Origin: Panopea generosa
Lineage: Eukaryota > Mollusca > Bivalvia > Adapedonta > Hiatellidae
Direction: 5' to 3'
Assembly (NCBI GenBank): GCA_029582155.1
Contig: CM055896.1
Location: 6,272,218-6,336,217 of the forward strand
DNA length: 64,000 bases
The position numbers and the translations under genes are program-made. The notes under the pieces were generated by a model. The model was not told the DNA's origin, ran no database searches, and saw only the letters and a list, made by a program, of their open reading frames with translations. Every line of letters begins with the position of its first letter. Within the stretch, counting starts at the first letter, position 1. This document shows positions 11,577-63,040 of the stretch, piece by piece.

Positions 11577-14500
11577 GATGTTAAGCGTCGCTTTCAACAA
11601 TTTTTCAGTTTGAAACAGTATTCTAATCGCTGCCACACTGGAGTATCATGCCACAGACACATGACATGATACTCTAACCATTAGCATTATGCTAACACCA
11701 GTTATATCGCGACGGTATCAATTTGTAACAGTATTCTCAGTGCTGCTACACTGAAGTACCATGTTGCAGACATATGACATGATACTCCAACCATTAGCAT
11801 TATACTAACACCAGTTATATCGCGACAGTATCTACTTGAAGAATTATTCTAAGCGCTGCCAAACTGTAGTACCATGTTGCAGCCACATGACATGATACTC
11901 CAACCATAAGCAGTATACTAACACCAGTTATATCGCGACGGTATATACTTGAAAAAGTATTATAAGCGCTGCAACACTGAAGTACAATGTTGCAGACACA
12001 TGACATGATACTCCAACCATTAGCAGTATACTAACACCAGTTATATTGCGACAGTATCTACTTGAAGAATTATTCTAAGCGCTGCCAAACAATAGTACCA
12101 TGTTGCAGCCACATGACACGATACTCCAACCATTAGCAGTATACTAACACCAGTTATATCGCGACGGTATATACTTGAAAATGTATTATAAGCGCTGCAA
12201 CACTGAAGTACAATGTTGTAGACACATGACATGATATTCCAACTTTTAGCATTATACTAACACTAGTTATATCACGACGGTGCCTACTTGAAACAGTATT
12301 CTCAGCGCTGCCACACTGGAGTATCATGTTGCAGACACATGACATGATACTCCAACCATTAGCAATATACTAACACCAGTTATATCGCGACATTGTCTAC
12401 TTGAAAAATTATTCCAAGCGCTGCCAAACTGGAGTACAATGTTGCAGACACATGACATGATACTCCAACCATTAGCAGTATACTAACACCAGTTATATTG
12501 CGACAGTATCTACTTGAAGAATTATTCTAAGCGCTGCCAAACAATAGTACCATGTTGCAGCCACATGACACGATACTCCAACCATTAGCAGTATACTAAC
12601 ACCAGTTATATCGCGACGGTATATACTTGAAAATGTATTATAAGCGCTGCAACACTGAAGTACAATGTTGTAGACACATGACATGATATTCCAACTTTTA
12701 GCATTATACTAACACTAGTTATATCACGACGGTGCCTACTTGAAACAGTATTCTCAGCGCTGCCACACTGGAGTATCATGTTGCAAACACATGACATGAT
12801 ACTCCAACCATTAGCAATATACTAACATCAGTTATATCGCGACAGTATCTACTTGAAAAATTATTCTAAGCGCCGCCAAACTTGAGTACAATGTTGCAGA
12901 CACATGACATAATACTCCAACCATTAGCAGTATACTAACACCAGTTATATCGCGACGGTATCTACTTGAAAAAGTATTATAAGCGCTGCAACACTGAAGT
13001 ACAATGTTGCAGACACATGACATGATATTCCAACCATTAGCATTATACTAACACTAGTTATATCACGACGGTGCCTACTTGAAACAGTATTTTAAGCGCT
13101 GCCACACTGGAGTATCATGTTGCAGACACATGGCATGATACTCCAACCATTACCATTATACTAACACCAGTTATATCGCGACGGTGTCGACTTAAAACAG
13201 TATTCTAGGCCCTGCCATATTGAAGTACCATGTTGCAGACACATGACATGATACTCCAACCATTTACATTATACTAACATCAGTTATATCGCAAGGGTGT
13301 CCACTACAAACAGTATTCTAAGCGCTGCCACACTGGAGTATCATGTTGCAGACACATGACATGATACTCCAACCATAAGCATTATACTAACACCAGTTAT
13401 ATCGCGACGGTGTCCACTTGAAACAGTATTCTAAGCGCTGCCACGATGGAGTACCATGTTGCAGACACATGACATGATACTCCAACCATTAGCATTATAA
13501 TAACATCAGTTATATCGTGACGGTGTCTACTTGAAACAGTATTATAAGCGCTGCCACGCTGGGGTACCATGTTGCAGACATATGGCATGATACTCCAACC
13601 ATTAGCAATATACTACCATCAGTTATATTGCGACATTGTCTACTTGAAACAGTATTAAAAGCGCTGCCACAATGAAGTATCATGTTGCAGACACATGACA
13701 TGATACTCCTACCATTAGTAATATGCTAACATCAGTTATATGCCGACATTGTCTACTTGAAACAGTATTCAAAGCGCTGCCATACTGAAGTATCATATTG
13801 CAGACACATGACATGATATTCCAACCATTAGCAATATACTAACATCAGTTATATCGCGACGGTGTCTACTTGATAGAGTATTTTGAGCTCTGCCACACTG
13901 ATGTATCATGTTGCAGACACATGACATGATACTCCAAGCATTTGCAGTATATTAACATCAGTTATATCTCGACATTGTTTACATGAAAAAGTATTCTAAG
14001 CGCTGCCAAACTGCAGTACCATGTTGCAGACACATGACATAATACTCCAACCATTAGCATTAAAGAAACATCAGTTATATTGCGACGGTGTTTACTCGAA
14101 ACAGTATTCTAAGCGCTACCACACTGGAGTGTCATGTTGCAGACATATAAAATGATACGCCAATCAGTAGCATTATACTAACACCAGTTATATCGCGACA
14201 TTGTCTACTTGAGACAGTATTCTAAGCGCTGCCACACTGGAGTATCATGTTGCAAACACATGACATGATACTCCATCCATTAGCATTATACTAACACCAG
14301 TTATATCACGACGGTGTCTACTTGAAACAGTATTCTAATCGCTGCCACACTGGAATATCATGTTGCAGACACGTGGCCTGATACTCCAACCATTAGAATT
14401 ATACTAACACCAATAATATCGCGACATTCTTTACTTGAAACAGTTTTCTAAGCGCTGCCACACTGGGGTATCATGTTGCAGACACATGACATGACACTCC

Positions 14501-17500
14501 AACTAGTAGCATTATACTTACACCAGTTATATCGCAACGGTGTCTACTTGAAACAGTATTTTAAGCGCTGCCACACCGGAGTACCATGTTGCAGACACAT
14601 GAATTGATACTCCAACCATTAGCATTATACTAACACCAGTTATATCGCGACATTGTCTACTTGAAACAGTATTCTAGGCGCTGTCACACTGGAGTATCAT
14701 GTTGCAGACACATGACATGATACTCCATCCATTAGCATTATACTAACATCAGTTATATCGCGACATTGTCTACTTAAAACAGTATTTTAAGCGCTGTCAC
14801 ACTGGAGTACCATGTTGCAGACACATGAATTGATACTCCAACCATTAGAATTATGCTAACATTAGTTATATCTCGACATTGTCTACTTGAAACAGTATTC
14901 TAAGCGCTGCCACACTGGAGTATCATGTTGCAGACACATGACATGATACTCCAACCATTAGGGTTATACTAACACCAGTTATATCACGACGACGTCTACT
15001 TGAAACAGTAGTCTAAGCGCTGCCACGCTGGAGTATCATGTTGCACACACATGACATGATACTCCAACCATTAGCATTATACTAACCCAGTTATATCGCG
15101 ACGGTGTCTACTTGAGACAGTATTCTAAGCGCTACCACACTGGAGTATCATGATGCAGACACATGACATGATACTCCAACCATTAGCATTATACTAACCC
15201 AGTTATATCGCGACGGTGTCTACTTGAGACAGTATTCTAAGCGCTGCCACACTGGAGTATCATGTTGCAGACACGTGGCCTTATACTCCAACCATTAGCA
15301 ATATACTAACACCAGTTATATCACGAGGGTGTCTACTTGAGACAGTTTTCTAAGCGCTGCCACGCTGGAGTATCATGTTGCACACACATGACATGATACT
15401 CCAACCATTAGCATTGTACTAACACCAGTTATATCGCGACGGTGTCTACTTGAGACAGTATTCTAAGCCCTGCCAAACTGAAGTATCATGTTGCAGACAC
15501 ATGATATGATACTCCAACCATTGGCATTTTACTAACATCAGTTATATCGTGTCGGTGTGTACTTGAGACAGTATTCAAAGCGCTGCCACACTGGAGTATC
15601 ATGTTGCAGACACATAACATGATACTCCAACCATTAGCATTATACTAACACCAGTTATATCGCGACGGTGTCTACTTGAAACGGCATTCTAAGCGCTGCC
15701 ACGCTGGAGTACCATATTGCAGACACATGACATGATACTCCAACCATTAGCATTATAATAACATCAGTTATATCGTGACGGTGTCTACTTAATACAGTAT
15801 TTTAAGCGCTATCACACTGGAGTACCATGTTGCAGACACATGACATGATACACCAACCATAGTATTATACTAACACCAGTTATATCGCGACGGTGTCTAC
15901 TTGAAACAGTATTCAAAGCACTGCCACACTGAAGTATCATATTGCAGACACATGACATGATATTCCAACCATTAGCAATATACTAACATCAGTTATATCG
16001 CGACGGTGTCTATTTGCTAGAGTATTTTGAGCGCTGCCACACTGAAGTATCATGTTGCAGACACATGACATGACATTCCAACCATTTGCAGTATATTAAC
16101 ACAAGTTATATCGCGACATTATTTACATGAAAAAGTATTTTAAGCGCTGCCAAACTGCAGTACCATGTTGCAGACACATGACATGATACTCCATCCATTA
16201 GCATTATACTAACATCAGTTATATCGCGACGGTGTTTACTTGAAACAGTATTCTAAGCGCTACCACACTGGAGTATCATGTTGCAGACATATAAAATGAT
16301 ACGCCAACCAGTAGCATTATACTTACACCAGTTGTATCGCGACGGTGTCTACTTGAGACAGTATTATAAGCACTATCACACTGGAGTATCATGTTGCAGA
16401 CACATGACATGATACTCTACCCAGTAGCATTATACTAACACCAGTTATATCGCGACATTGTCTTCTTGAGACAGTATTCTAAGCGCTGCCACACTGGAGT
16501 ATCATGTTGCAGACACATGACATGATATTCCATCCATTAGCATTATACTAACACCAGTTATATCTCGACGGTCTCTACTTGAAACAGTATTCTAATCGCT
16601 GCCACACTGGAGTATCATGTTGCAGACACATGACATGATACTCCATCCATTAGCATTATACTAACATCAGTTATATCGCGACGGTGTTTACTTGAAACAG
16701 TATTCTAAGCGCTGCCACACTGGGGTATCATGTTGCAGACACATGACATGACACTCCAACCAGTAGCATTATACTTACACCAGTTAAATCGCAACGGTGT
16801 CTACTTGAAACAGTATTCTAAGCGCTGCCATACTGGAGTATCATGTTGCAGACACATGAATTGATACTCCAACCATTAGAATTAGACTAACACCAGTTAT
16901 ATCGCGACATTGTCTACTTGAAACAGTATTCTAGGCGCTGTCACACTGGAGTGCCATGTTGCAGACACATGACATAATACTTCAACCATTAGCATTATAC
17001 TAACACCAGTTATATCGCGACGGTGTTTACTTGAGAGATTATTCTAAGTGCTGCCACACTGGAGTATCATGTTGCAGACACATGAAATGATACTCCATCC
17101 ATTAGCATTATACTAACATCAGTTATATCGCGACGGTGTCTACTTGAAACAATATTCTAAGCGCTGCCACACTGGAGTACCATGTTGCAGACACATGACA
17201 TGATACTCCAACCATTAGCATTATACTAACACCAGTTATATCGCGACGTTATCTACTTGAAACAGTATTCTAAGCGCTGCCACGCTGGAGTACCATGTTG
17301 TAGACACATGACATGATACTCCAACCATTAGCATTATACTAACACCAGTAATATCGCAACGGTATCTACTTGAAACAGTATTCTAAGCGCTGCCACGCTG
17401 GAGTATCATGTTGCAGACACATGACATGATACTCCAACCATTAGCATTATACTAACACCAGTTATATCGCGACGGTATCTACTTGAAACAGTATTCTAAG

Positions 17501-18625
17501 CGCTGCCACGCTGGAGTACCATGTTGTAGACACATGACATGATACTCCAACCATTAGCATTATACTAACACCAGTAATATCGCAACGGTATCTACTTGAA
17601 ACAGTATTCTAAGCGCTGCCACGCTGGAGTACCATGTTGCAGACACATGACATGATACTCCAACCATTAGCATTATACTAACACCAGTTATATCGTGACG
17701 GTGTCTACTTGAAACAGTATTTTAAGCGCTGCCACGTTGGAATATCATGTTGCAGACACATGACATGATACTCCAACCATTAGCATCATACTAACACCAG
17801 TTATATCGCGACGGTGTCTACTTGAAATAGTATTCTAATTGCTGCCACACTGGAGTATCATGCTGCAGACAGATGACATGATATTCAAACCATTAGCATT
17901 ATACTAACACCAGTTATATCGCGACGGTGTCTCGTTGAAACAGTATTCTAAGCGCTGCCACGCTGAAGTATCATGTTGTAGACACATGACATGATACTCC
18001 AACCATTAGCATTTTACTAACACCAGTTATATCGTGACATTGCCTACTTGAAACAGTATTCTAAGCGCTGCCACACTGGAATACCATGTTGCAGACACAC
18101 GACATGATACTCCAACCATTAGCATTATACTAACACCAGTTATATCGCGACGGTGTCTCGTTGAAACAGTATTCTAAGCGCTGCCACGCTGGAGTACCAT
18201 GTTGCAGACACATGACATGATACTCCAACCATTAGCATTATACTAACACCAGTTATATCGTGACGGTGTCTCCTTGAAACAGTATTCTAAGCGTTGCCAC
18301 GCTGGAGTATCATGTTGCAGACACATGACATGATACTCCAACCATTAGCATTATACTAACACCAGTTATATCGCGACGGTGTCTACTTGAAACAGTATTC
18401 TAAGCGCTGTCACACTGGAGTATCATGACGCAAACACATGATATGATACCCAACCCAGTCACATTATACCGAAACCGAGCCGACCAGACCTAGAACTATC
18501 CTCTAAATGTTTATTGCCAAGCGAGGAAGCTTTTAGTACCATATTTTAGTTATTGATATGATCCGGTCTGGAGTCGAACCCACTACCTTCTGCATGCGAG
18601 CCGGACGCTTTATCCCTAGACCACC
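11577..18625. repeat. 113-bp satellite formed inside a SINE
   Basis: About 60 units with a 113-bp period fill 11,610-18,470. Each has GTATCATGTTGCAGACACA, ACATGATACTCCAACCATTA, ATACTAACACCAGTTATATC and CTAAGCGCTGCCACACTGGA. The left border (AGCGTCGCTTTCAACAATTT at about 11,584) and the right border (GCCGACCAGACCTAGAACT, AGCGAGGAAGCTT, then a tRNA-like head at 18,548-18,625) match the two ends of the single-unit SINE at 25,410-25,722. The satellite therefore looks like a minus-strand SINE whose body was amplified in place. Near-identical multi-unit blocks, for example around 12,041-12,345 and 12,493-12,797, show recent unequal exchange. Confidence 0.85.
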
Positions 18626-25409: not shown

Positions 25410-25722
25410 TTGTTGTATGGTGTTTAGCGTCGCTTTCAACAATTTTTCCAGTCATATCGCGACGGTATCTGCTTGAGACAGTATTCTAAGCGCTGTCACA
25501 CTGGAGTATCATGCCGCAGACACATAGTATGATACCCCACCCAGTCACATTATACTGACACCGGGCCGACCAGACCTAGAACTCTCCTCTAAATGCTGAG
25601 CGTCAAGCGAGGAAGCTTGTATTACCATTTTAAAGTCTTTGGTATGACCCGGCCGGGGATTGAACCCACGACCTTCCGCATGCGAGGCGGACGCTCTACC
25701 ACTAGACCAGGCCGCGGTCATT
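25410..25722 (-). repeat. SINE with one 113-bp-type body unit
   Basis: Read on the minus strand: tRNA-like head (A box TGGTCTAGTGGTAGAGCGTC, B box GTGGGTTCAATCCCC) at 25,636-25,722, then a body with one copy of the 113-bp satellite unit, then a tail ending in GCGACGCTAAACACCA near 25,420. It supplies the unamplified form of the element that surrounds the satellite at 11.6-18.6 kb. It falls outside the mollusc SINE families I can name with confidence. Confidence 0.75.
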
Positions 25723-39245: not shown

Positions 39246-39630
39246 ATATGGAGATTTTTATTTTCTTTAAATGTATTATGCACAGTGTGCAAAAAAAATA
39301 GACACCGGAATAGCCAATGAAAAACTAGCTTATAAAATAAACAGGAAATTACTTACCTTAATTTTCATTGGTTGATAACAATTGTTACGAGAATCATGAC
39401 TGCCGTGTATTTTTTTCTGTGAACTAAATTATGTTATAATTGAACGTTATCAAAAATGTTGCCTGGAGGTTAAAACTCCACACATGAATTACGGAAAGCG
39501 CATTGCGCTGTCACGTTCCACTCCAATTACGGACAGGTAAATTGCTTGAAAAAATTATTCGTGACGCTTGACATAAATTGTCATAAACTTTTACAAATAG
39601 CCAGAGTACTGCTCTGCAATTTATTACTGT

Positions 39631-39895
39631 CTTGAAGGACTGGACATTAGTCCCGTGTACACAGAGAGTCATACCCAGTTTGTCTTGAAGGACTGGACAT
39701 CAGTCCCGTGTACACAGAGAGTCATATCCAGTTTGTCTTGAAGGACTGGACATCAGTCCCGTGTACACAGAGAGTCATACCCAGTTTGTCTTGAATGACT
39801 GGACATCAGTCCCGTGTACACAGAGAGTCATACCCAGTTTGTCTTGAAGGACTGGACATCAGTCCCGTGTACACAGAGAGTCATACCCAGTTTCC
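39631..39895. repeat. 53-bp tandem array, 5 units
   Basis: Units start at 39,631, 39,684, 39,737, 39,790 and 39,843, each beginning CTTGAA and containing CATCAGTCCCGTGTACACAG. Nearly identical copies show a recent origin. Noncoding as far as can be seen. Confidence 0.95.
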
Positions 39896-40537
39896 CTTGA
39901 AGGTCTCACTGAACTTCTATGTTAATTCAAATGCCTGTAAACCTCACTCAGAAACGATGTTTCCAATATTAATAAGACATTGATTGATAGAAGTAAAGGG
40001 GGAAAAAACAGTGGCTAAAGAGTGCCATATTCAGATGTTTCGAATGTATGTAGGCAGAGTATGTAAAGAAGGGTCAAAATAAAATAAAATATCAAATAAA
40101 AAAGAAAATGCCATCTTTCGAACCAGCAGATTTGATTTGAATATTTAATATCATTTTTAATGCCAGCTTTTGCTAACAAGACAATCAGTTAGCCCACTCT
40201 TGATTAGGATCCTGGAAAGTTAAGCGGTTCTTAGTTTAGTTTATACCAATATATTTGAGCTTGATTGCGAAATAACAAATAACAATGAAAAACATTCATA
40301 CATCAGTCATCATAGAGACTATGGCCAGACAGTGATTCAATCTCATGACCCCTGGATTTTAAGACAGATTGCGTCATTTGTTGGAATGATATATGTTTGA
40401 AGCAAATAGCCATTGAAAATACTTGTTTCAAAATCAGTTATCAAAGAAGTCTTTAACCATTGTTAATTGAAAAAAAAATTTAACATAACACAGGGAAACA
40501 CAATCGGTAATTCCCATTCATACAATCTTATTTCAGG
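39896..40537. other. Intergenic with minus-strand SINE head
   Basis: At 40,305-40,385 a degenerate minus-strand tRNA-like head (GACTATGGCCAGACAGTG, then GACCCCTGGATTTTAAGAC) is related to 58,425-58,530. Nothing else recognised. Confidence 0.45.
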
Positions 40538-41938: not shown

Positions 41939-44900
41939 GTAAGTTGTTGAATCTCAGAGTTGTTGTATAAATGAGCTGATGTGAGATGGACTATCGCTCC
42001 ACCCACTGATCGCATGCCATTGTTTGTCCAAGTTTATACAATGTAGTGTTTATTTAGACATTAATTGTTTGTATTAGGAAAGTGGCGGAATAGCAACCAA
42101 TATCGCTTGCTGAATGGATTATCAACTTGTTTTGATTGACAACCCACGTCAAGTCAATTGTTTTGAAGGCTGAATATATTATCATTGAATAGAATGACCA
42201 AATATTTACAATATTAACATAAATCAGTTGAAATCTATAATGCCAAATGTTTTTCTAGCCTAATGTCTCATTTTAAACCTACCTCTCATTGCCGGAGTGT
42301 TACGTTCCAGCCCAGCTCAGTCCAAAGATTTTAAGTGAGAAAGTTGGTAATTTTCTTACCATCTCAGTTTCATTCAGAGGTCTTTTTAAGGTCCTACGTG
42401 ACTGAGGGGTATATGCACTATAAACTCCTTCTAAATTTTGCAGCTGATATTAACTAAACATGTTAAGGAGTTTCGGTATAAACAGATAAAGGCCAGTTGT
42501 GTATATTGTCAATCCATCAAGTTATGTCCCTTAAATTCTTTTTAATGGTCAATATTGCCAGCACAACTTCTACTAAATTTCTCAACTGATTATGGCCAAA
42601 TTTGTCAGTTATTATCCGTACGAAGTTAAAATGCCTATATTGTCATCTACTAACTTGACGGGGAAACTCATGCTCTATAGTCCCATAAAATGTCACATAA
42701 AGTTTTCTACCGATGCACCCTGTCTCCCCAGCACTTTTTGTTTTACAACTATTTATTTAAGATACGTTTTCATTACGAATAGTGTCTGGTGTAGTCTGTG
42801 AAAGTAAGTAAAAGTAAAGTGTTTGTTTATTATAGTGTCAACCTTATTGAAAGGGCCAGCCACACTGTGCTTATGAGAATTATTTATGTACACAGTTACT
42901 TTCCGAAAGCTATCATTACCAGGCGTCAGGCTGTTAGACATTTGGTTCCCCTCAATTTAACTAGCTGTTCGGTGAGCAACTGGGCCCATCCGAAAAAATC
43001 TAAGTGCTTCAATTGGGATTCAAACTTTTGACCTCCCACTTGCGAGGCAGACGACTTAACCACTAGGCCACGGAAAACAGTGTTAACCTCATTTGTCAAC
43101 TTCAAATTTTGAAGTTATTAAAAAAATTTTGGAAATTCATTTAGTGTGTCGCTTACTCATTGTTCGATCTTTTGTAAGCCTTATAACAAATATTCTTTCT
43201 AAACTTTGCATAAAATACTACGCAAATGAAAAGTTTTTAGATGTCACAATTTGTTTGATGAAATTCTTAACACTCATTGTTAATACAAATGTTAGTGAAA
43301 CGGGCCTCAAAGTTTAGATATACAGAAAATGCAAGCATCTTGCTGCATATCAGTATCAGCTAAGCACAAATACAAAGCTTCTAAAAGATGGTCATAAGAA
43401 ATAACATGACCTTTGATTTTTTGCAACTGACACTCACAGATGATCATAGTTTTAATTTTAATAGTTAAAGATGATCATAACACATTTCAAATAGTAGTGC
43501 CTCCCCCAAAGAAGCTAAAAATTCATTTAACTGGTCAACAGACTTTTAAATCTTTCATTGATGATAATGTTACCACAAATACAACTTCATGTTTGATGGA
43601 GAAGCTGTATTGATGTACATCGGTCACCAGCACTTTTGCTATGTATACCTGTATTGTTACTGTCGTTTATACCCCATACTTTTCTTCTACAGAGTGAACC
43701 GTAATCTCAGTGAAAAGAAGCGCCGAGATCAGTTCAACATGTTGGTGAACGAATTGTGTACAATGGTATCGACAACCAGTAAGAAGATGGACAAATCCAC
43801 TGTTCTCAAATCAACTATCGCTTTTTTAAAGAACCATCAAGGTACAGCACTATTTTACATTTGATATTTCAGGGACGTTTTACAGAATGGATGGCAGTCT
43901 AGTTTTATAATTGGAAAAACACATGATTTTTTAAAAAAATTCTAAGGCTCAACATTTTGTACAATTTTAGGTTGAATTTGGGTAATTCATGATTTTTGCA
44001 TGGTGAAGACACTGACTATTGATGTCGGGGGTAAGACAGATAATTGGTGTCTGGGAAAGACACTGATAATTGATGCCTTATTGGTGTCTGGGGGAAGAGA
44101 AATTATTGGTGCCTGGGGATGACACAGATTATTAGTGTCAGGGGAAGACAGATTATTTTGTGTCTAGGATGATTAATTATTTGTGTCTAGGATGACAAAT
44201 TATTGGTGTCTTGGGAAGACACAGATTATTGGTGTCTGGGAATTACACTGATTATTGGTGTCTGGGGAAGATGCTGATTATTGGTGTCAGGGGAAGACAC
44301 TGATTATTGGTCGCTGGGAGAAGAGAGATTATTGGTGTCTAAGGATGACACAGATTATTGGTGTCAGGGGAAGACAGATTGTTTGTGTCTAGGATGACAA
44401 ATTATTTGTGTCTAGGATGACAAATTATTGGTGTCTTAGGAAGACACAGATTATTGGTGTCTGGGAATTACACTGATTATTGGTGTCTGGGGAAGATGCT
44501 GATTATTGGTGTCAGGGGAAGACACTGATTATTGGTCGCTGGGAGAAGAGAGATTATTGGTGTCTGAGGATGACACAGATTATTGGCGTCAGGGGAAGAC
44601 AGATTATTTGTGTCTAGGATGACAAATTATTTGTGTCTAGGATGACAGATTATTGGTGTCTGGGGAAGACACAGATTATTGGTGTCTGGGTATTACACTG
44701 AATATTGGTGTCTGGGGAAGACATTGGTTATTGGTGTCAGGGGAAGATGCTGATTATAAGTGTCAGGGGAAGATGCTGATTATTGGTGCCTGGGGAAGAT
44801 ATTGATTATTGGTGTCTTGGGAAGATGCTGATTATAAGTGTCAGGGGAAGATGCTGATTATTGGTGTCTGGGGAAGACACAGCTTATTGGTGTCTACAAA

Positions 44901-50900: not shown

Positions 50901-53900
50901 CCATTGGAAAAATTCCCAATTTTTTCTCAATTTCTAGGGCCTAAATTAAAATTATTTGTTTGCTGCTTCCAGCTGACCCACAACTATCCTGCTGGTCAAA
51001 AAAAAAAATTTTTCAAGGGTGGCCTAGGGCTAGGACCTTTTCCCAGTTTTAAGGGAAAAGTAGGGTAATCTATGGGAGAGAGCAAGACAGGGCCATGGAC
51101 AGTCAACTCTGTCTTTCTTTAAAAAGCATATCTTCATAATTTCTCATTCTTAATGAAATTCCAAAAGATAGTGGTAGTGAATCTAACCTCCATTCACAGT
51201 AGGTGTTTTGTCCGGGTATACCGACATACAAGTATATGTGAGGGGTTTTGCCAAGGAGAGGTTTATCCTACACTTGCAAAATTCATGGGAAGAGTTTTGT
51301 CCGCTTCTGACTGGGAGTGGGTTTGTCTGTATACTTCCCCAATCAGGGCAGTGTTGTTGTTTTTTTACCCCAAATATTCAGCGAAATTCGACCCCATTTC
51401 CTCCATTTTTTTGTATTAAGTTGGGTTTAATGCCAGTTTAACAGTTTAAAACAATGAAGAGCAGGAATGTTGTCCTGGTAACTGTTCTAAATATACATAC
51501 TTATGATTTCTTTTGTCTTTTTATTTTATTTTATGACCTATTAAAATTCCCCGAAACACTAATTTTTCCCCCTTTCCCTAGAAATAAAAATAATCACTGC
51601 AGGGTCATGTGCTATTACCTTGAGCAATATGCATGATTTTCATGTACTTAAAAACTGATTATGCTAGATGATGAAGATATAGATGATTATTTGTCTACAG
51701 TTGTAAGAACTTGTTTCACAATTGATGTAAAATCAATAGGTTTAAAACTCAATGAACATTTTTTATGGATTATGCAATAAGTTAACAGTACATATTTATG
51801 TATGCTTACAGATGACGATGAGTTGCAGGGTATATCTATCAAGGACCAGGTGTGCTTCTGTAGTACGGTCAGGTTACAGACATCCCAACTGGTGCGAGAA
51901 ATGTCCATTGTAGATGACAACAAAGAGTTTACTTCCAGGCACAGTCTGGAATGGAAATTTCTATTTTTAGATCACAGGTTCGTAAATTTGTAATGCACAT
52001 ATCCCTACAAAAAATTCTTTCATGTGCATAGTATGTAATATTTGCCTCTCAGTAGTGACTGTCTGCTGTTTATTTTTCAGATCTCCTTCCATTATTGGTT
52101 ATCTATTGTTTATGTTTCAGAGCTCCTCCCATTATTTGCTATCTGCTGTTTGTTTTTCAGAGCTCCTCCCATTATTTGCTATCTGCTGTTTATTTTTCAG
52201 AGCTCCTTACTTTATTGGCTATCTGCTGTTTATTTTTCAGAGCTCCTCCCATTATTGACTATCTGCTGTTTATTTTTCAGAGCTTCTCCCTTTATTGGCT
52301 ATCTACTGTTTTTCTTTTCAGATCTCCTTCCATTACTGGCTATCTGTTGTTTATGTTTCAGAGCTCCTCCCATTATTGGCTATTTGCTGTTTATTTTCAG
52401 AGCTCCTCCCATTATTGGCTATCTCCTGTTTATTTTTCAGAGCTCCTCCTATTATTGGCTATCTGCTGTTTATTTTTCAGAACTCCTCCCATTATTGTCT
52501 ATCTGCTACTGGCTGTTTATTTTTTGGAGCTCCTCCCATTATTTGCTATCTGCTGTTTATTATTCAGAGCTCCTCCCTTTATTGGCTATCTGCTGTTTAT
52601 TTTTCAGAGCTCCTCCCTTTATTTGCTTTCTGCTGTTTATTTTTCAGAGCGCCTCCCATTATTGGCTATCTGCTGTTTATTTTTCAGAGCTCCTCCCATT
52701 ATTGGCTATCTGCGGTTTATTTTTCAGAGCCTCCCTTTATTTGCTATCTGCTGTTTACTTTTCAGAGCTCCTCCCTTTATTGGCTATCTACTGTTTTTTT
52801 TCAGATCTCCTTCCATTATTGGCTATCTATTGTTTATTTTTCAGAGCCTCCCTTTATTTGCTATCTGCTGTTTACTTTTCAGAGCTCCTCCCTTTATTGG
52901 CTATCTACTGTTTTTTTTCAGATCTCCTTCCATTATTGGCTATCTATTGTTTATGTTTCAGAGCTCCTCCCTTTATTGGCTATCTGCTGTTTATTTCTCA
53001 GAGCTCCTCCCATTATTGGCTATCTGCTGTTTATTTTTCAGAGCTCCTCCCTTTATTAGCTATCTGCGGTTTATTTTCCAGAGCTCCTCCCTTTATTTGC
53101 TATCTACTGTTCTTTTCAGATCTCCTTCCATTATTGGCTATCTATTGTTTATGTTTCAGAGCTCCTCCCTTTATTTGCTATCTGCTGTTTATTTTTCAGA
53201 GCTCCTCCCTTTATTGGCTATCTGCTGTTTATTTCTCAGAGCTCCTCCCATTATTGGCTATCTGCTGTTTACTTTTCAGAGCTCCTTCCTTTATTGGCTA
53301 TCTACTTTATTTTTCAGATCTCCTTCACTTACTGGCTATCTTTTGTTTATGTTTCAGAGCTCCTCCCATTATTTGCTATCTGCTGTTTACTTTTCAGAGC
53401 TCCTCCCATTATTTGCTATCTGCTGTTTATTTTTCAGAGCTGCTGTCATTTTTGGTTATCTGCTGTTTATTTTTCAGAGCTCCTCCCTTAATGGCTATCT
53501 GCGGTTTATTTTTCAGAGCTCCTCCCTTTATTTGCTATCTACTGTTGTTTTTTTTTCAGATCTCCTTCCATTACTGGTGATCTATTGTTTATGTTTCAGA
53601 GCTCCTCCCATTATTTGCTATCTGCTGTTTATTTTTCAGAGCTTCTCCCATTCTTGGCTATCTGCTGTTTTTTTTTCAGAGCTCCTCCCTTTATTAGCTA
53701 TCTGCTGTTTATTTTTCAGTGCTCCTTCCATTATTGGCTATCTGCTGTTTATTTTTCAGAGCTCCTCCCATTATTGGCTATCTGCTACTCGCTGTTTATT
53801 TTTCAGAGCTCCTCCCTTTATTGGCTATCTCCTGTTTATTTTTCAGAGCTCCTCCCATTATTGGCTATCTGCTGTTTATTTTTCAGAGCTCCTCCCATTA

Positions 53901-56900
53901 TTGGCTATCTGCTATTTATTTTTTAAGAGCTCCTCCCATTGTTGGCTATCTGCTGTTTATTTTTCAGAGCTCCTCCCATTATTGGCTATCTACCGTTTGA
54001 AGTACTGGGAACTTCTGGTTATGATTATTATCACCCTGACGACCTTGATGGGGTCACCCAGTCCCATGAACAATGTAAGTAAATTTTTCCTAATACTCAA
54101 GGTGAGCTATTCTGGTCGCCCTGTGTTCTTCTGTTAACTTTTTGTTTGTTGCGTGAATTCTAATAACCCCATTTTTTATTAAATCTTCACTGAACCTGAA
54201 TAGTAGTTATATAACCATAATATCGTAGACAAAGTCTTGAACTGGTCAAATTAATGTACAAATTGTTGCCATTGAACATAAAAAATTGCACTATTTGACC
54301 ATATTTTACATTTGAATTTAACTTCACTTACACCAAAGCTATATAACCATTTAGATTTCAGAAAAGATCTTGAACTGGCCAATTTGGGTAATAAATGTTT
54401 GAAATATGCGTTAATTGATATAGTGTGTGCTCTAGTACTCTCAGTTTTCATTTGAATTTCACCAAACTAACACTTTAGTTATATCAATAAAATATCTCTG
54501 ACAAGTTCTTGAACTGGCCAAATTGGATAATTATTGTTGGAGTTATGGGCCTTGAACCATAAAAAAATCTTTAATTTGACAGTGTGTGCACTCTCACACT
54601 CATAGTTTTCATTTGATAGTCACCAAACTAACATTGTAGTTATATACTCATAATATCTCGAACTTGACAACTCAGATGGTGTTTATCAGTCGGTCTCCAA
54701 CAGAATCACACAGAAATCTCATAAGAATATGTTGTGAAAGTTTCCAGTCTGTCATGTGTTTTTTTTTTGTAATTTCAGTAATGAAAACTGGAGAAGGAAC
54801 GTCCTGTTACTATAGGTTTTTAACAAAGGGCCAGCAATGGATTTGGCTGAAGACACGTTATTTTATTACATATCATCAATGGAATTCTAAACCAGAATTC
54901 ATCAACTGTACAAACACTGTAGTCAGGTAAGCTAAAAATATTAACAATATTACGAGATGGGATCATTTTATCTTTTACTCAGTCGGCATCTCTTGGTAAA
55001 TTGTTTGCCTTTTAACTTTGTTTTTTATTTCTTGACTATCAATCCTGGGGTCCTGAGGTCAAATTGCCAAGCCACAGGGTCATGGCTTCGTTCCTTTGCC
55101 ACGGCTATATGTGGTGTCCTTGAGCAAGACACTTTTCCACATATGCTGATTACTGGTTCTACACTAGAAGACTTTGAGCGGGATTTGCCTAAGTCGTAAG
55201 AACTTCACAATTGAAGTAAAAGAAATAAGTTTTAATTTTGGTGGCAGGTAGTGTTCTCATTCTCTCAAATATTGTTGTTGTTGTTGTTTTAGTTATACAG
55301 ATGTCTTCACTGAGTTCATCTGTAATGATGGCAGATAGTTTTCTCACTCCCTCAAATATTATTGTTATTGTTTTAGGTATGCTGATGTCTTCACTGAGTT
55401 CTTCAGTAATGGTGGCAGATAGTTCTCTCACTCTCTCAAATAGTGTTGTTATTGTTTTAGGTATGCAGATGTCTTCACTGAGTTCTTCAGTAATGATGGC
55501 AGATAGTTCTCTCACTCTCTCAAATATTGTTGTTATTGTTTTAGGTATGCAGATGTCTTCACTGAGTTCTTCAGTAATGATGGCAGATAGTTCTCTCACT
55601 CTCTCAAATATTGTTGTTATTGTTTTAGGTATGCAGATGTTTTCACTGAGTTCTTCAGTAATGATGGCAGATAGTTCTCTCACTCTCTCAAATATTGTTG
55701 TTATTGTTTTAGGTATGCAGATGTCTTCACTGAGTTCTTCAGTAATAGTGGCAGATAATTCTCTCACTCTCTCAAATATTGTTGTTATTGTTTTAGGTAT
55801 GCAGATGTCTTCACTGAGTTCTTCAGTAATAGTGGCAGATAATTCTCTCACTCTCTCAAATATTGTTGTTATTGTTTTAGGTATGCAGATGTTTTCACTG
55901 AGTTCTTCAGTAATGATGGCAGATAGTTCTCTCACTCTCTCAAATATTGTTGTTATTGTTTTAGGTATGCAGATGTCTTCACTGAGTTCTTCAGTAATAG
56001 TGGCAGATAATTCTCTCACTCTCTCAAATATTGTTGTTATTGTTTTAGGTATGCAGATGTCTTCACTGAGTTCTTCAGTAATGATGGCAGATAGTTCTCT
56101 CACTCTCTCAAATATTGTTGTTATTGTTTTAGGTATGCAGATGTTTTCACTGAGTTCTTCAGTAATGATGGCAGATAGTTCTCTCACTCTCTCAAATATT
56201 GTTGTTATTGTTTTAGGTATGCAGATGTCTTCACTGAGTTCTTCAGTAATAGTGGCAGATAATTCTCTCACTCTCTCAAATATTGTTGTTATTGTTTTAG
56301 GTATGCAGATGTCTTCACTGAGTTCTTCAGTAATAGTGGCAGATAATTCTCTCACTCTCTCAAATATTGTTGTTATTGTTTTAGGTATGCAGATGTCTTC
56401 ACTGAGTTCTTCAATAATGGTGGCAGATAGTTCTCTCACTCTCTCAAATATTGTTGTTATTGTTTTAGGTATGCAGATGTCTTCACTGAGTTCTTCAGTA
56501 ATGGTGGCAGATAGTTCTCTCACTCTCTCAAATATTGTTGTTATTGTTTTAGTTATGCAGATGTCTTCACTGAGTTCTTCAATAATGGTGGCAGATAGTT
56601 CTCTCACTCTCTCAAATATTGTTGTTATTGTTTTAGTTATGCAGATGTCTTCACTGAGTTCTTCAGTAATGATGGCAGATAGTTCTCTCACTCTCTCAGA
56701 TATTGTTGTTATTGTTTTAGTTATGCAGATGTACGTTCACAGAAGCGTAAGGAGCTGGGAAATGTTGATGATGATAGTTCCGTATCAGCTGATGTTGAAA
56801 GGTCGCCGTATTGCAAGATGGCCAGCAGTCCATCTGTGGGCTCGGTAACCTCTGCAGGCAGACTAGAATCTGCATGGTCATCTCCACTACATAATTCACA

Positions 56901-58058
56901 TGCAGAACATAACGCAGGTAAAATAACTTTCTGATATGTACATGACTTGTATGTCTTGGAGAAAATAATAGTTCCTAAAAACACCTTAACTGACACATTG
57001 TTCTACAGTCTACTATCAATTTGAACGCTTTGATTCTAATCTAGTCTGGTTCTCAGATAAATCTACAGGCCATAAGTATGGAATTTGTGACTCGGATGTA
57101 TCTGTGGTCTGTTTCCATGTAAAATCTGTACCCGTGTATAATTTGCATCCTGGATATATGACAGTAATATTTGTAAAATGTTTTCAAAAAATTATTTGTT
57201 CAATTTGTTCAAAGAAAGGATCCATTCTTTTTTCAGAATTGTTTCAATCAATTTTATGTCTGAAGCATTTTTTAGTCCTAACATTTTGGACTTTGCCCTT
57301 TAAAGGATATCATATATCTTTGAGGGGCCAGCAGGGGCCCAAAAATGGATAAAAATGTGATTTATCATAAATCTTATAATTATATAAGTGGCCTGCCAAA
57401 TTTGTTTTTTATTTAGTTTAAATGATCTCAGTGAGTAGGTGTTTGGAGTTTGTTCAAGGAAAGCTGCTAGGGTCCATTGGTGCCTAGTGATTGACTATGA
57501 TTTTTACATGGAATGCTTCAAGAAATTGTGTCTCATCTTTAAGTTCTTCATTGACTTAGTCCATTCAAAATTGAAAAAAAAAGTTACAGGTAAAATCAGG
57601 TGAGCGACTTAGGCCCTTCTTGTTATCTTTTGCTATTGTCTATTAATTATATAGTTTTATCTCTCACTGCTCAGTTCATCGGCTTGAACCAAGCTTGATC
57701 CAAAGATTTTTTGCAAAGAAATTTACCAGTCATTTTTGGAAGGGTGTTGCTTTTGACCCAGATCCATGTTCACCAGTTATATTATTTGTTTTCAGTTTGC
57801 ACAATGTCAGAAACAGACAGTACTGAGGGAAGTATATACCCAACATCCACGTCTCACATTCGGTCTCGAGCAGTCTCAGACAGGCTGCATCAGTTTTTAC
57901 AGCGACACCAACAACAGCAACAACAAGACAACATTTCAACACATCAACTCCAAAGTCCTGCCCCACGTTCTCAAACTGCCATTTGTACACCATCTTCTTC
58001 CCAGTCAACACTGCCACTACAACAGCTGCTCTACCGTAGACAACAACAGCAGCAAAAA

Positions 58059-58089
<31 letters not shown>

Positions 58090-61000
58090 AACAACAGCAG
58101 CAGCAATCAAATCAAGAGATGACACATATTCAAAGAATTTTACCTCGTCCAATAACCTCCCCTGTGATGGAACCTCAAACCAATCTTACAGTATGTTCTC
58201 TTTATTTTCAAAACTCTATGAGATTGATTGATTAAATATTTAGCATCATTGTATGCCATGGGGGGGGGGGGGGGGTGCTAACAGATGATCAGTTAACCTA
58301 ACTACATATTCCTGGAATTCTGGAAGGTTTGTTCTCGAACACACCCCATCTCCACAAGTTGCTGATAACTTTCCCACTTGAAACATTAGAGAGGGACGAA
58401 TGATAATGAGACACAATGTCATATATATATAAATCATCATGGAGACCTTGGCCGGGCAGAGATTCAAACTCAGGACCCCTGGATTGATAGTCAGATGCGT
58501 TACTGACTGAGCTAATCAGCCTCGGCAACTCTGTAGCTGTTTTCTGTACTTTTGAGTTACATATAGATTTCAATGTGCTAAAAATAGAACATGGACTCAT
58601 CTGATTAGCGTGTTGAGGTCAGAAGGTTAATGTGTAATTGACTCTTCACCATGGCGACATAATTATAAAGTGTATAATTATTATTATCTTTACACTACTT
58701 TTTAGCAGGAACAATTCTGTTCTTAATAAGACTTTATAAGGTTTTATATTTATTCATATTTCAGGAAAGCCAGGACCTAGTGAGTTCAGTGTCCCACCCT
58801 GTATCCGTGGTAGCCAGTCCTGCTATCATGACAGTTTCACCAATCTCCTTGGTAACTTGCTTTTTTTTGTCAAACAACAAGCACATTGAATGTTTTGCGA
58901 CTTGCTGTAATTGCCATTACAAGATTGGAAATATTCTGATTTTGTAAACTGTTAAGACACCGTTCTATTATTTGGGTTTCACGAACATGAAACTAGCCAA
59001 ATGTTTTTCATAACCGTGATGAAAACTCAAAACTGTGCTTTTAATCCTTAACTACATGTATACTGTCAAGATGTAATGTTCCATTTATTTTGTATACTGT
59101 GATGTTCCATTTATTTTGTGTACTGTGATGTTACATTTATTCTGTTTACTGTGATGTTCCATTTACTCTGTGTACTGTGATATTCCATTTATTCTGTGTA
59201 CTGTGATGTGCCATTTATTCTGGTTACTGTGATGTTCAATTTATTCTATGTACTGTGATGTTCCATTTACTCTGTGTACTGTGATGTTCCATTTATTCTG
59301 TGATGTTCCATTTATTCTGTATACTGTGATGTTCCATTTATTCTGTGAACTGTGGTGTTCCATTTATTCTGTCTACTGTGATGTTCCATTTATTCTGTTA
59401 TGTGATGTTCCATTTATTCTGTGTACTGTGATGTTTCATTTATTCTGTATACTGCAATGTTCCATTTATTCTGTAAACTGTGATTTTCCATTTATTCTGT
59501 GTACTGTGATGTTCCATTTATTATGTGTACTGAGATGTTCCATTTATAAACTCAACTATTGATTGTATGAATAGGGCAGTTTTTTATGTCTGGTCGGTAA
59601 CTTTGTCTTCAACTTGGCTCAATTGATCAAGATGACATGACAAAGTGTCGCCCGTAAGACCCAGACCCTTACCTCAAAGGTCAAGGTCACACTTTCAGTT
59701 TGTTTGACAACACTTTGAGTCTGTTTGAGATTTCAAGTCTTGTCTTTAAATTTATCATACATAGATGGATTTCAAAAACACTTGGCTCAATTTACCAATT
59801 GATCAACATGACATGACTACGTGTCAAGTTAGAACCAAGAACCTTACCTCAGATTTCAAGGTCACAATCTCAGTTTGTTTGATATTTTAGGTCTGGTCTG
59901 TAACTTTGTATTAAAATAGCTTGAAACAAGTGATCAGCATGTCATGATGATTTGTTGCCTGCATTTACCTGTAGAAATACCCAGACCTTTACATGAGATT
60001 TCAAGGTCAAGGTTACGCAAAGGTCAAGGTCACACTTTAATTTGAAAAAAAACAAACATGAAAATGCATGTCTAGTCTGAGACGTCAGCCATTACTTTTG
60101 ATATTCATGGATACATCACTGCCTATTATAAAGTATATCATTATTTTCACAGACCATTTGGGGGCATGTGACACTTACCAGTGACATTTCTTGTTGTACT
60201 TGCGTCAGTGTCGGCGTTAAAGTTTTGGTGCAAGTTGTTCATAAGTGTGCATTTCTTACAGTAATATGCATAAAATGTGCATGCTAATACTCTGAGGCAG
60301 TATGTAACATATTGGGATTGAAGGTCAAGGCCATATTGCAGGGTGTAAAGGTTGTACTTTGTCTTGAATCTCTGTGTTAAAAGTTTTAACGCAAGTTTTA
60401 CTACATGCATACTGACAGTTATGTGAATGGTACTTGTCACAAGGGTGTATGCTTGTCCCTCCAGATTTTGTACTATTAAAGGACTGCTATATTTCTGTAT
60501 TTAAGTTCAAGGGGAAATATCGAATTGAAAAGCAGAAATTGGACTTATGACCAAGTTAAAGTTAAGGTGCAAGTTGTATATGTATATATATTATTTTCTT
60601 TAGGCTTATATTAATGTTCAACCCCCCCAAAAAAAATTTGTTATGTGTATCGTAATAGATCAACGTATTTTTTGGGTTCAGCATCTTATTCACTTAAGAG
60701 CCCAAAACTGTTATCGTGTATTTATATAAACTGTTGTAAAACGTATCTAACTTGATATATTACATGTTATTGTTTGAATATTTCTGGCCTCATTATCCCA
60801 TACCCATTCAGACACCTGTCAAGTATCCCCCGCCCCCTTTTTTTTAAAATTTAATTTTGTATTAAATAAATACTCCCTCATTTCAACTTTATTATTACCA
60901 TCTCCCCCACCCAACTTTTTATCTTTTATTTTATTTATTGTTAAATTTTATTTTTTAAATTGTGTTTTGTTTAAAATAAAATGCTCTGCCGAATTTGAAA

Positions 61001-61689: not shown

Positions 61690-63040
61690 CCACATTTGTG
61701 ATTGTAAATAATTGTGAGTGAATACTGTTTGTGATTGTAAAGAATAGTAAGAGATAACTTTGTGATTGATTACTGATTGTGATTGTAAAGAATAGTGAGA
61801 GATAATTGTTTGTGATTGATTACTGTTTGTGATTGTAAAGAATAGTGAGAGATAATTGTTTGTGATTGATTACTGTTTGTGATTGTAAAGAATAGTGAGA
61901 GATAATTGTTTGTGATTGATTACTGTTTGTGATTGTAAAGAATAGTGAGAGATAATTGTTTTGATTGATTACTGTTTGTGATTGTAAAGAATAGTGAGAG
62001 AGAATTGTTTGTGATTGATAACTGTATGTTATTGTAAAGAATAGTGAGAGATAACTGTTTGTGATTGATAACTGTATGTTATTGTAAAGGTAGTGAGAGA
62101 TAATTGTTTGTGATTGTAAAGAATAATGAGTGAATACTGATTGTGATTGTAAAGAAAAGTGAGAGATAATTGTTTGTGATTGATTACTGTTTGTGATTGT
62201 AAAGAATAGTGAGAGAGAATTGTTTGTGATTGATAACTGTATGTTATTGTAAAGAATAGTGAGAGATAACTGTTTGTGATTGATAACTGTATGTTATTGT
62301 AAAGGTAGTGAGAGATAATTGTTTGTGATTGTAAAGAATAATGAGTGAATACTGATTGTGATTGTAAAGAAAAGTGAGAGATAATTGTTTGTGATTGATT
62401 ACTGTATGTTATTGTAAAGAAAAGTGAGAGATAATTGTTTGTGATTGATTACTGTATGTTATTGAAAAGAAAAGTGAGAGATAATTGTTTGTGATTGATT
62501 ACTGTATGTTATTGTAAAGAATAGTAAGAGATAACTGTTTGTGATTGATAATTGTATGTTATTGTAAAGGTAATGAGAAATAATTGTTTGTGATTATAAA
62601 GAATAATGAGTGAATACTGATTGTGATTGGAAAGAAAAGTAAGAGATAATTGTTTGTGATTGATTACTGTATGTTATTGTAAAGAAAAGTGAGAGATAAT
62701 TGTTTGTGATTGATTACTGTATGTTATTGTAAAGAATAGTGAGAGATAACTTTTTGTGATTGATTACTGTATATTATTGTAAAGGTAGTGAGAGATAATT
62801 GTTTGTGATTGTAAAGAATAATGAGTAAATACTGATTGTGATTGTAAAAAAAGTGAGAGATAATTGTTTGTGAATGATTACTGTATGTTATTGTAAAGAA
62901 AAGTGAGAGATAATTGTTTGTGATTGATTACTGTATGTTATTGTAAAGAATAGTGAGAGATAATTGTTTGTGATTGATTACTGTATGTTATTGTAAAGGT
63001 AGTGAGAGATAATTGTTTGTGATTGATAACTGTTTGTTAG
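61690..63040. repeat. ~50-bp minisatellite downstream of exon 61,083
   Basis: About 27 units around GTGATTGATTACTGTATGTT, ATTGTAAAGAATAGTGAGAG and ATAATTGTTT, with multi-unit blocks repeated (for example 61,985-62,160 and 62,205-62,370). Noncoding, presumably inside Clock. Confidence 0.9.

Follow-up and report, generated by a model that had tools for sequence, protein, structure and literature searches.

Clock, in a 64,000-nucleotide stretch of the geoduck Panopea generosa genome (hereafter the window, meaning the whole stretch), contains two tandem arrays that end at splice acceptors and are built from copies of those acceptors and of the exon starts behind them. Array 1, in intron 8, sets 47 decoy acceptors before the true acceptor of exon 9, and array 2, in intron 10, sets 17 before that of exon 11. 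It is likely that both are mirage minisatellites, mostly silent in splicing but leaking some truncated transcripts.

Two arrays at the acceptors of Clock

Clock, a bivalve gene on the forward strand of the window, was read from its ATG at 39484 as far as 61260, a span with 14 coding exons, and the gene continues beyond this point. The reading frame is open over 659 residues, and AG and GT are present at all inner junctions. The gene was identified by its HLH and PAS domains (Pfam) and by gap-free alignment to the CLOCK chains 8osj_M and 4f3l_A, which spans both array-bearing junctions. Seventeen related CLOCK proteins (12 named, all from bivalves, and 5 unnamed) further support the identity and the exon 8/9 junction. 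The nearest long proteins, including those of Mactra antiquata (order Venerida) and Mercenaria mercenaria, are about 75% identical. None of the 17 carries an insert at the exon 8/9 junction, and none of the 16 that reach the exon 10/11 junction carries one there.

Table 1. Positions in the window of the two arrays and of the Clock exons and introns discussed in the text.
Feature	Position	Strand	Description
Array 1	52062..53967	+	40-bp unit AGCTCCTCCCATTATTGGCTATCTGCTGTTTATTTTTCAG; 47 decoy acceptors at 52080-53927, true acceptor 53967
Array 2	55239..56732	+	84-bp unit; 17 decoy acceptors at 55292-56636, true acceptor 56720; last 12 nt are exon
Clock exon 1	39484..39536	+	ATG, MNYGKRIALSRSTPITD(S); resembles N-termini of related CLOCK proteins
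Clock exon 8	51812..51977	+	ends ..FLFLDH(R); donor CAG|GTTCGT
Clock intron 8	51978..53967	+	1990 nt, phase 2
Clock exon 9	53968..54074	+	begins (R); Pfam, CLOCK chain alignment
Clock exon 10	54779..54926	+	PAS-B; ends ..NTVV(S); donor CAG|GTAAGC
Clock intron 10	54927..56720	+	phase 2
Clock exon 11	56721..56917	+	begins (S)

A sequence-only reading of the window had described an intron in the PAS-B region of Clock filled with repeats of an acceptor plus exon start, and our analysis confirms this. Tandem Repeats Finder (TRF) places array 1 at 52062-53998, with 48.2 copies and 85% matches, and the array fills almost all of the intron. Each unit joins the acceptor tract to the start of the adjoining exon 9. 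The exon-derived part had been put at about 24-31 nt; the consensus is identical to the exon start over its first 24 nt, while 31 nt is reached only if two mismatches are allowed. Located by their AG, the acceptors number 48, namely the 47 decoys and the true one (G at 53967), and none is missing, because unit lengths stay within 38-49 nt. The decoys reported 40 and 81 nt upstream of the true site exist, although their positions had been given one base too high (53928 and 53887; the Gs are at 53927 and 53886).

In array 1, the AG stands in register in 46 of the 47 decoys. Decoy 52529 has GG where the AG is expected (52526-52527) and was counted by an exon-derived AG that lies 2 nt on. Two of the 47 decoys have something other than CAG, one of them being the nearest decoy, 53927, whose weakened AAG is a single case. 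No decoy in this array reads AG|GT, which would recreate a donor (0/47). Units carrying the variant ATCTCCTT recur at unit indices 0, 6, 18, 21, 26, 31, and 37, and identical unit pairs are found at lag 3 (2/44), lag 5 (2/42), and lag 6 (1/41) but at no other lag from 1 to 15. Both patterns are as block-wise expansion would give.

Array 2, absent from the sequence-only reading, has the same design and occupies the 3' end of an intron of the same gene, with 96% matches by TRF. Its unit combines the acceptor with the initial 12 nt of exon 11, the exon's first base, T, being replaced by G in 14 of the 17 decoys. The AG is in register in all 17. The edges of the array are diverged, with 8 changes in the first unit, and its centre is nearly uniform. 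A longer exon-derived part, of about 49 nt with gaps, was also considered; its score was reached by 11 of 2000 shuffles, which is suggestive only.

Array copy number is frequently wrong in assemblies, and arrays such as these could in principle have been inflated or invented by misassembly. In amphioxus, the comparable array of the globin gene BflGb6 appears misassembled in the draft genome, as noted in PMC3087553. The units of array 1, however, differ from one another (mean 3.3 edits from the consensus), the two arrays are unrelated, and many further diverged arrays are present in the window. An assembly artefact is thus extremely unlikely.

Predicted outcome of decoy use

As the sequence-only reading had proposed, none of the array 1 decoys preserves PAS-B: a premature stop is predicted for all 47, reached inside the array by 26, in the decoy's own exon by 3, and in the next exon by 18. 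Ten decoys are in frame; three of them run to a stop at 53924, and for the other seven the stop comes sooner, at 52256, 53057, or 53489. The proposal that in-frame decoys further upstream meet the same TAA at 53924 therefore holds for 53559 and 53679 only, the seven others having stopped before it. In array 2, all 17 decoys keep the frame, and all stop at unit positions 44-46, shortly after PAS-B. The predicted product is 388 residues long in each case. Judged from its sequence, it would retain bHLH, PAS-A, and PAS-B but not the C-terminal part with its glutamine tract.

These stops could be read as a dosage valve, an idea the sequence-only reading had raised as truncated CLOCK under dosage control. 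A regulated fraction of Clock pre-mRNA would then be spliced to decoys and would either be degraded by nonsense-mediated decay (NMD) or, through array 2, yield CLOCK lacking its C-terminal region. The stops of all 47 and 17 decoys precede the last known junction by 720 nt or more, the array 2 product is uniform, and the AG is kept in register in nearly every decoy, all of which would suit such a valve. The retention of the AG is nevertheless close to what chance would give. Twenty singletons over 40 columns (33 units) lead to an expectation of one in the two AG columns, where none is seen, and one further decoy (the GG at 52526-52527) has lost its AG. Variants per column amount to 0.96 in the exon-derived part of array 1 and 0.79 in the intron-derived part (33 units of 40 nt), and no coding constraint on the decoys is evident. 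Moreover, the same effect is expected of most minisatellites that bear splice sites and stops. The absence of inserts from related CLOCK proteins also speaks against a valve, though it says only that those models use the normal site. With the fold of the region not unusual either (see below), the idea of dosage control is unsupported, and we regard a valve as very unlikely.

Selection of the exon-adjacent acceptor

To rank the acceptors, we used a profile built from the 11 other Clock acceptors (exons 2-14 minus the two array sites), a small set suited to ranking only. The true site of array 1 scores 9.13, which 30 of the 47 decoys equal or exceed, and that of array 2 scores 4.50, below all 17 of its decoys. 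Local strength thus fails to explain acceptor choice, because most or all decoys score as well as or better than the true sites. Position beside the exon probably decides. The simplest account is exon definition, in which the copy closest to the exon body and to the exon's donor prevails; exon definition, like the rules of NMD, is textbook background on splicing and decay. In this scheme, the exon-adjacent copy would be spliced because the exon's own donor and signals in the exon body override the preference for the first AG. Decoys would be mostly silent, and their occasional use would give truncated, NMD-prone transcripts. The earlier suggestion that only the last unit is used, by virtue of its position, gains indirect support from the local quality of the decoys and from an RNA-like contig that is nearly identical to a Mytilus edulis CLOCK model but does not contain that model's apparent donor-side array (see below). 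Dozens of near-identical serial acceptors amount to a natural experiment that sets the first AG against the exon in acceptor choice.

Several observations weigh against the reading of mostly silent mirages. Branch points, which the sequence-only reading had wanted predicted for each unit, were sought as TNAY matches in the AG-free zone; 4 of the 47 acceptors have none (the first acceptor was left out), and the true acceptor 53967 is among these four. In array 2, an A-to-G change found only in the true unit among 17 adds a further AG, whose end lies 21 nt upstream of 56720. The true acceptors look locally worse than the decoys, and some decoy use is therefore expected by first-AG logic. Support for use of the last acceptor comes from a single source, protein conservation. 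Finally, arrays that span a junction are somewhat in excess in this gene (see the next section), which leans against pure chance, and a neutral account leaves this excess unexplained.

Two other ways of keeping the decoys silent were considered and set aside. GAGCUC at acceptor edges can pair between units and might hide decoys in RNA structure; the fold of 53728-54074, however, is no better than that of shuffled sequences for that stretch (z +1.32; 91 of 100 shuffles do as well or better). Purging of decoy AGs was likewise rejected, with only 1 of 47 having lost its in-register AG (52526-52527).

Array 2 raises a further possibility. Its G-type decoys read TTTTAG|GTATGC (14/17), whereas the first decoy, the final two, and the true site have T in place of G. 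In situ, the G-type sequence has a donor score of 7.6; spliced to exon 10, it becomes CAG|GTATGC, and its score of 10.2 approaches the highest among the 13 real Clock donors scored (2.0-10.3). These 14 decoys thus combine AG|GT with a strong regenerated donor, as recursive splice sites do, and a CTCAC branch-site match lies at -30 in both decoy acceptors checked. Each G-type unit (GTATGC...TTTTAG, 84 nt) could act as a complete mini-intron, so that array 2 would be removed by recursive splicing and mistakes spliced away. Against this, such rescue could not reach the three T-type decoys, two of which are the closest to the exon, and homogenisation alone would spread G through the array centre. 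We consider removal by recursive splicing unlikely. A related idea, which we rate as doubtful, treats array 2 as a set of decoys that cancel themselves. Homogenisation would have spread a T-to-G change at exon position +1, most wrong acceptors would then regenerate a donor equal in strength to the best in the gene, and mis-splicing would be repaired recursively until the last T-type acceptor. If this were true, the growth of acceptor minisatellites would be tolerated as the decoys erase themselves, and introns could lengthen through the exon edge. The recursive splice sites known to us (ratchet points) are single sites in long introns. They resemble array 2 in that AG|GT would recreate a donor, whereas array 2 would offer 14 such sites in tandem, 84 nt apart.

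Origin of the arrays

Returning to the mirage reading, we compared 14 chosen window arrays with the 14 Clock exons extended by 60 nt on each side. Only arrays 1 and 2 strongly match an exon edge (E 3e-32 and 2e-32, respectively), the next best match having an E value of 0.001. When the six arrays of at least 200 bp in the gene were placed at random, 0.41 junction-spanning arrays were expected against the two seen (P 0.05; acceptors only, 0.016). Leaving out a two-copy 231-bp array lowered the expectation to 0.21 (P 0.014; acceptors, 0.004). This placement test was post hoc.

Both arrays display several features of mirage minisatellites. In each, the tandem unit spans an exon-intron boundary, and many, though not all, repeats carry splice signals. 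Concerted evolution that excludes the edges is clear in array 2 and weaker in array 1. We infer that each array began with the tandem duplication of a short segment across the intron-exon edge, which then expanded by unequal exchange and homogenisation; growth would have been confined to the side of the intron, since the final copy has to remain coding.

For array 1, an origin through bridging microhomology was examined, with TCTGCTGTTT in the intron and TCTACCGTTT in the exon matching at 8/10 positions 40 nt apart. Since 14 of 180 offsets reach 8/10, this is suggestive only. With the array 1 peptide as a protein query, 7993 candidates were scored, and none of these matched at E 0.001.

Relation to known systems

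The sequence-only reading knew of no described case, yet relevant cases appear in three papers: amphioxus mirages (PMC3087553, PMC3902484) and a donor variable number tandem repeat (VNTR) of human ABCA7 (PMC5954066). Amphioxus mirage minisatellites occur in the globin genes BflGb6 and BflGb9 and in Adh3 (PMC3087553); lancelet PGBD5 also carries them, as does TnC, cited in the same source (PMC3902484). The two haplotypes of BflGb6 have 6 and 3 units, and the authors take the Adh3 data and their own reverse transcription PCR to suggest that regular splicing is not interfered with (PMC3087553).

Like the window arrays, the amphioxus mirages are described as tandem repeats over an intron-exon edge (the 3' end of the intron plus the exon start) with AG/GT signals. 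Their edge units escape homogenisation, as the diverged edges of array 2 may have done. The window arrays differ in belonging to a bivalve, in having 47 and 17 extra copies of 40- and 84-bp units, and in occurring as two arrays in one gene. They also differ in that the G-type units of array 2 regenerate a donor and in being known from DNA alone.

In intron 18 of human ABCA7, a 25-bp VNTR begins with the exon 18 donor, at the GT of the intron. One unit is retained in 2 +/- 1%, and skipping of exon 19 rises with VNTR length (PMC5954066). Here too, an array of splice-site copies adjoins a real exon edge, and a one-unit shift leads to a frameshift. The ABCA7 array starts at a donor, in contrast to both window arrays, which end at acceptors.

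Among the matches listed in our literature searches (titles and abstract openings), mirage minisatellites were named only in amphioxus, and no molluscan case was found. The window arrays thus most likely belong to a known kind, the mirage, and extend it to a bivalve, to more copies than in the amphioxus globin case, and to two arrays in one core clock gene.

A putative donor-side array in Mytilus edulis Clock

The M. edulis CLOCK gene model P0037 contains, at about residues 165-365, a 19-residue unit like SKSQLYNLICHVSMTPENL in ten copies, nine of them extra and amounting to 171 residues, located at the exon end after PAS-A. This block looks like a donor-side mirage because N-L-S-K-S would be the read-through of A|GTAAGT in phase 1, and the Clock intron at the equivalent position in the window is of phase 1. 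From the protein sequence, the block is probably a donor-side mirage that was annotated as coding. The unnamed protein P0034 has a single copy of the unit and is otherwise identical to P0037 at 618 of 621 residues outside the block; its contig is RNA-like, because at 2102 bp it is too short to hold introns. A single copy is also found in four more unnamed proteins, P0035, P0033, P0029, and P0032. If this interpretation is right, the exon-adjacent site would win on the donor side too. P0037 shares its gene, Clock, with the window arrays, but its repeat lies on the donor side and is known from protein only. As a likely donor-side case, it adds to the range of mirages, and it carries a warning for annotation, as the M. 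edulis model seems to include a mirage array as protein.

Other repeats in the window

Further repeats lie in or beside Clock. About 90 nt after the donor of exon 1, a 53-bp unit is present in 5 copies (39628-39903; 96% matches) and matches none of the Clock exons at E up to 1. Arrays of 26 bp lie within Clock introns at 44006-44895 and 59072-59547, clear of exon edges. In intron 9 (54230-54530), three near-copies of TTGAACTGGCCAAATTGG lie about 135-140 nt apart, a diverged repeat absent from the TRF list. Directly after the last exon read, 61695-63039 consists of TTTGTGATTGATAACTG-like units that recur at periods of 50, 100, 215, and 265.

Outside Clock, a satellite-like array at 11610-18455 has a 113-bp unit in 60.6 copies, with an inverted repeat within the unit (GGAGTATCATGT..ACATGATACTCC). 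The only match to known RNA families (Rfam) in the window is a tRNA-Ala-like element (CGC) on the reverse strand at 25646-25716, which scores 30 bits against a threshold of 29 and may be a tRNA-derived repeat.

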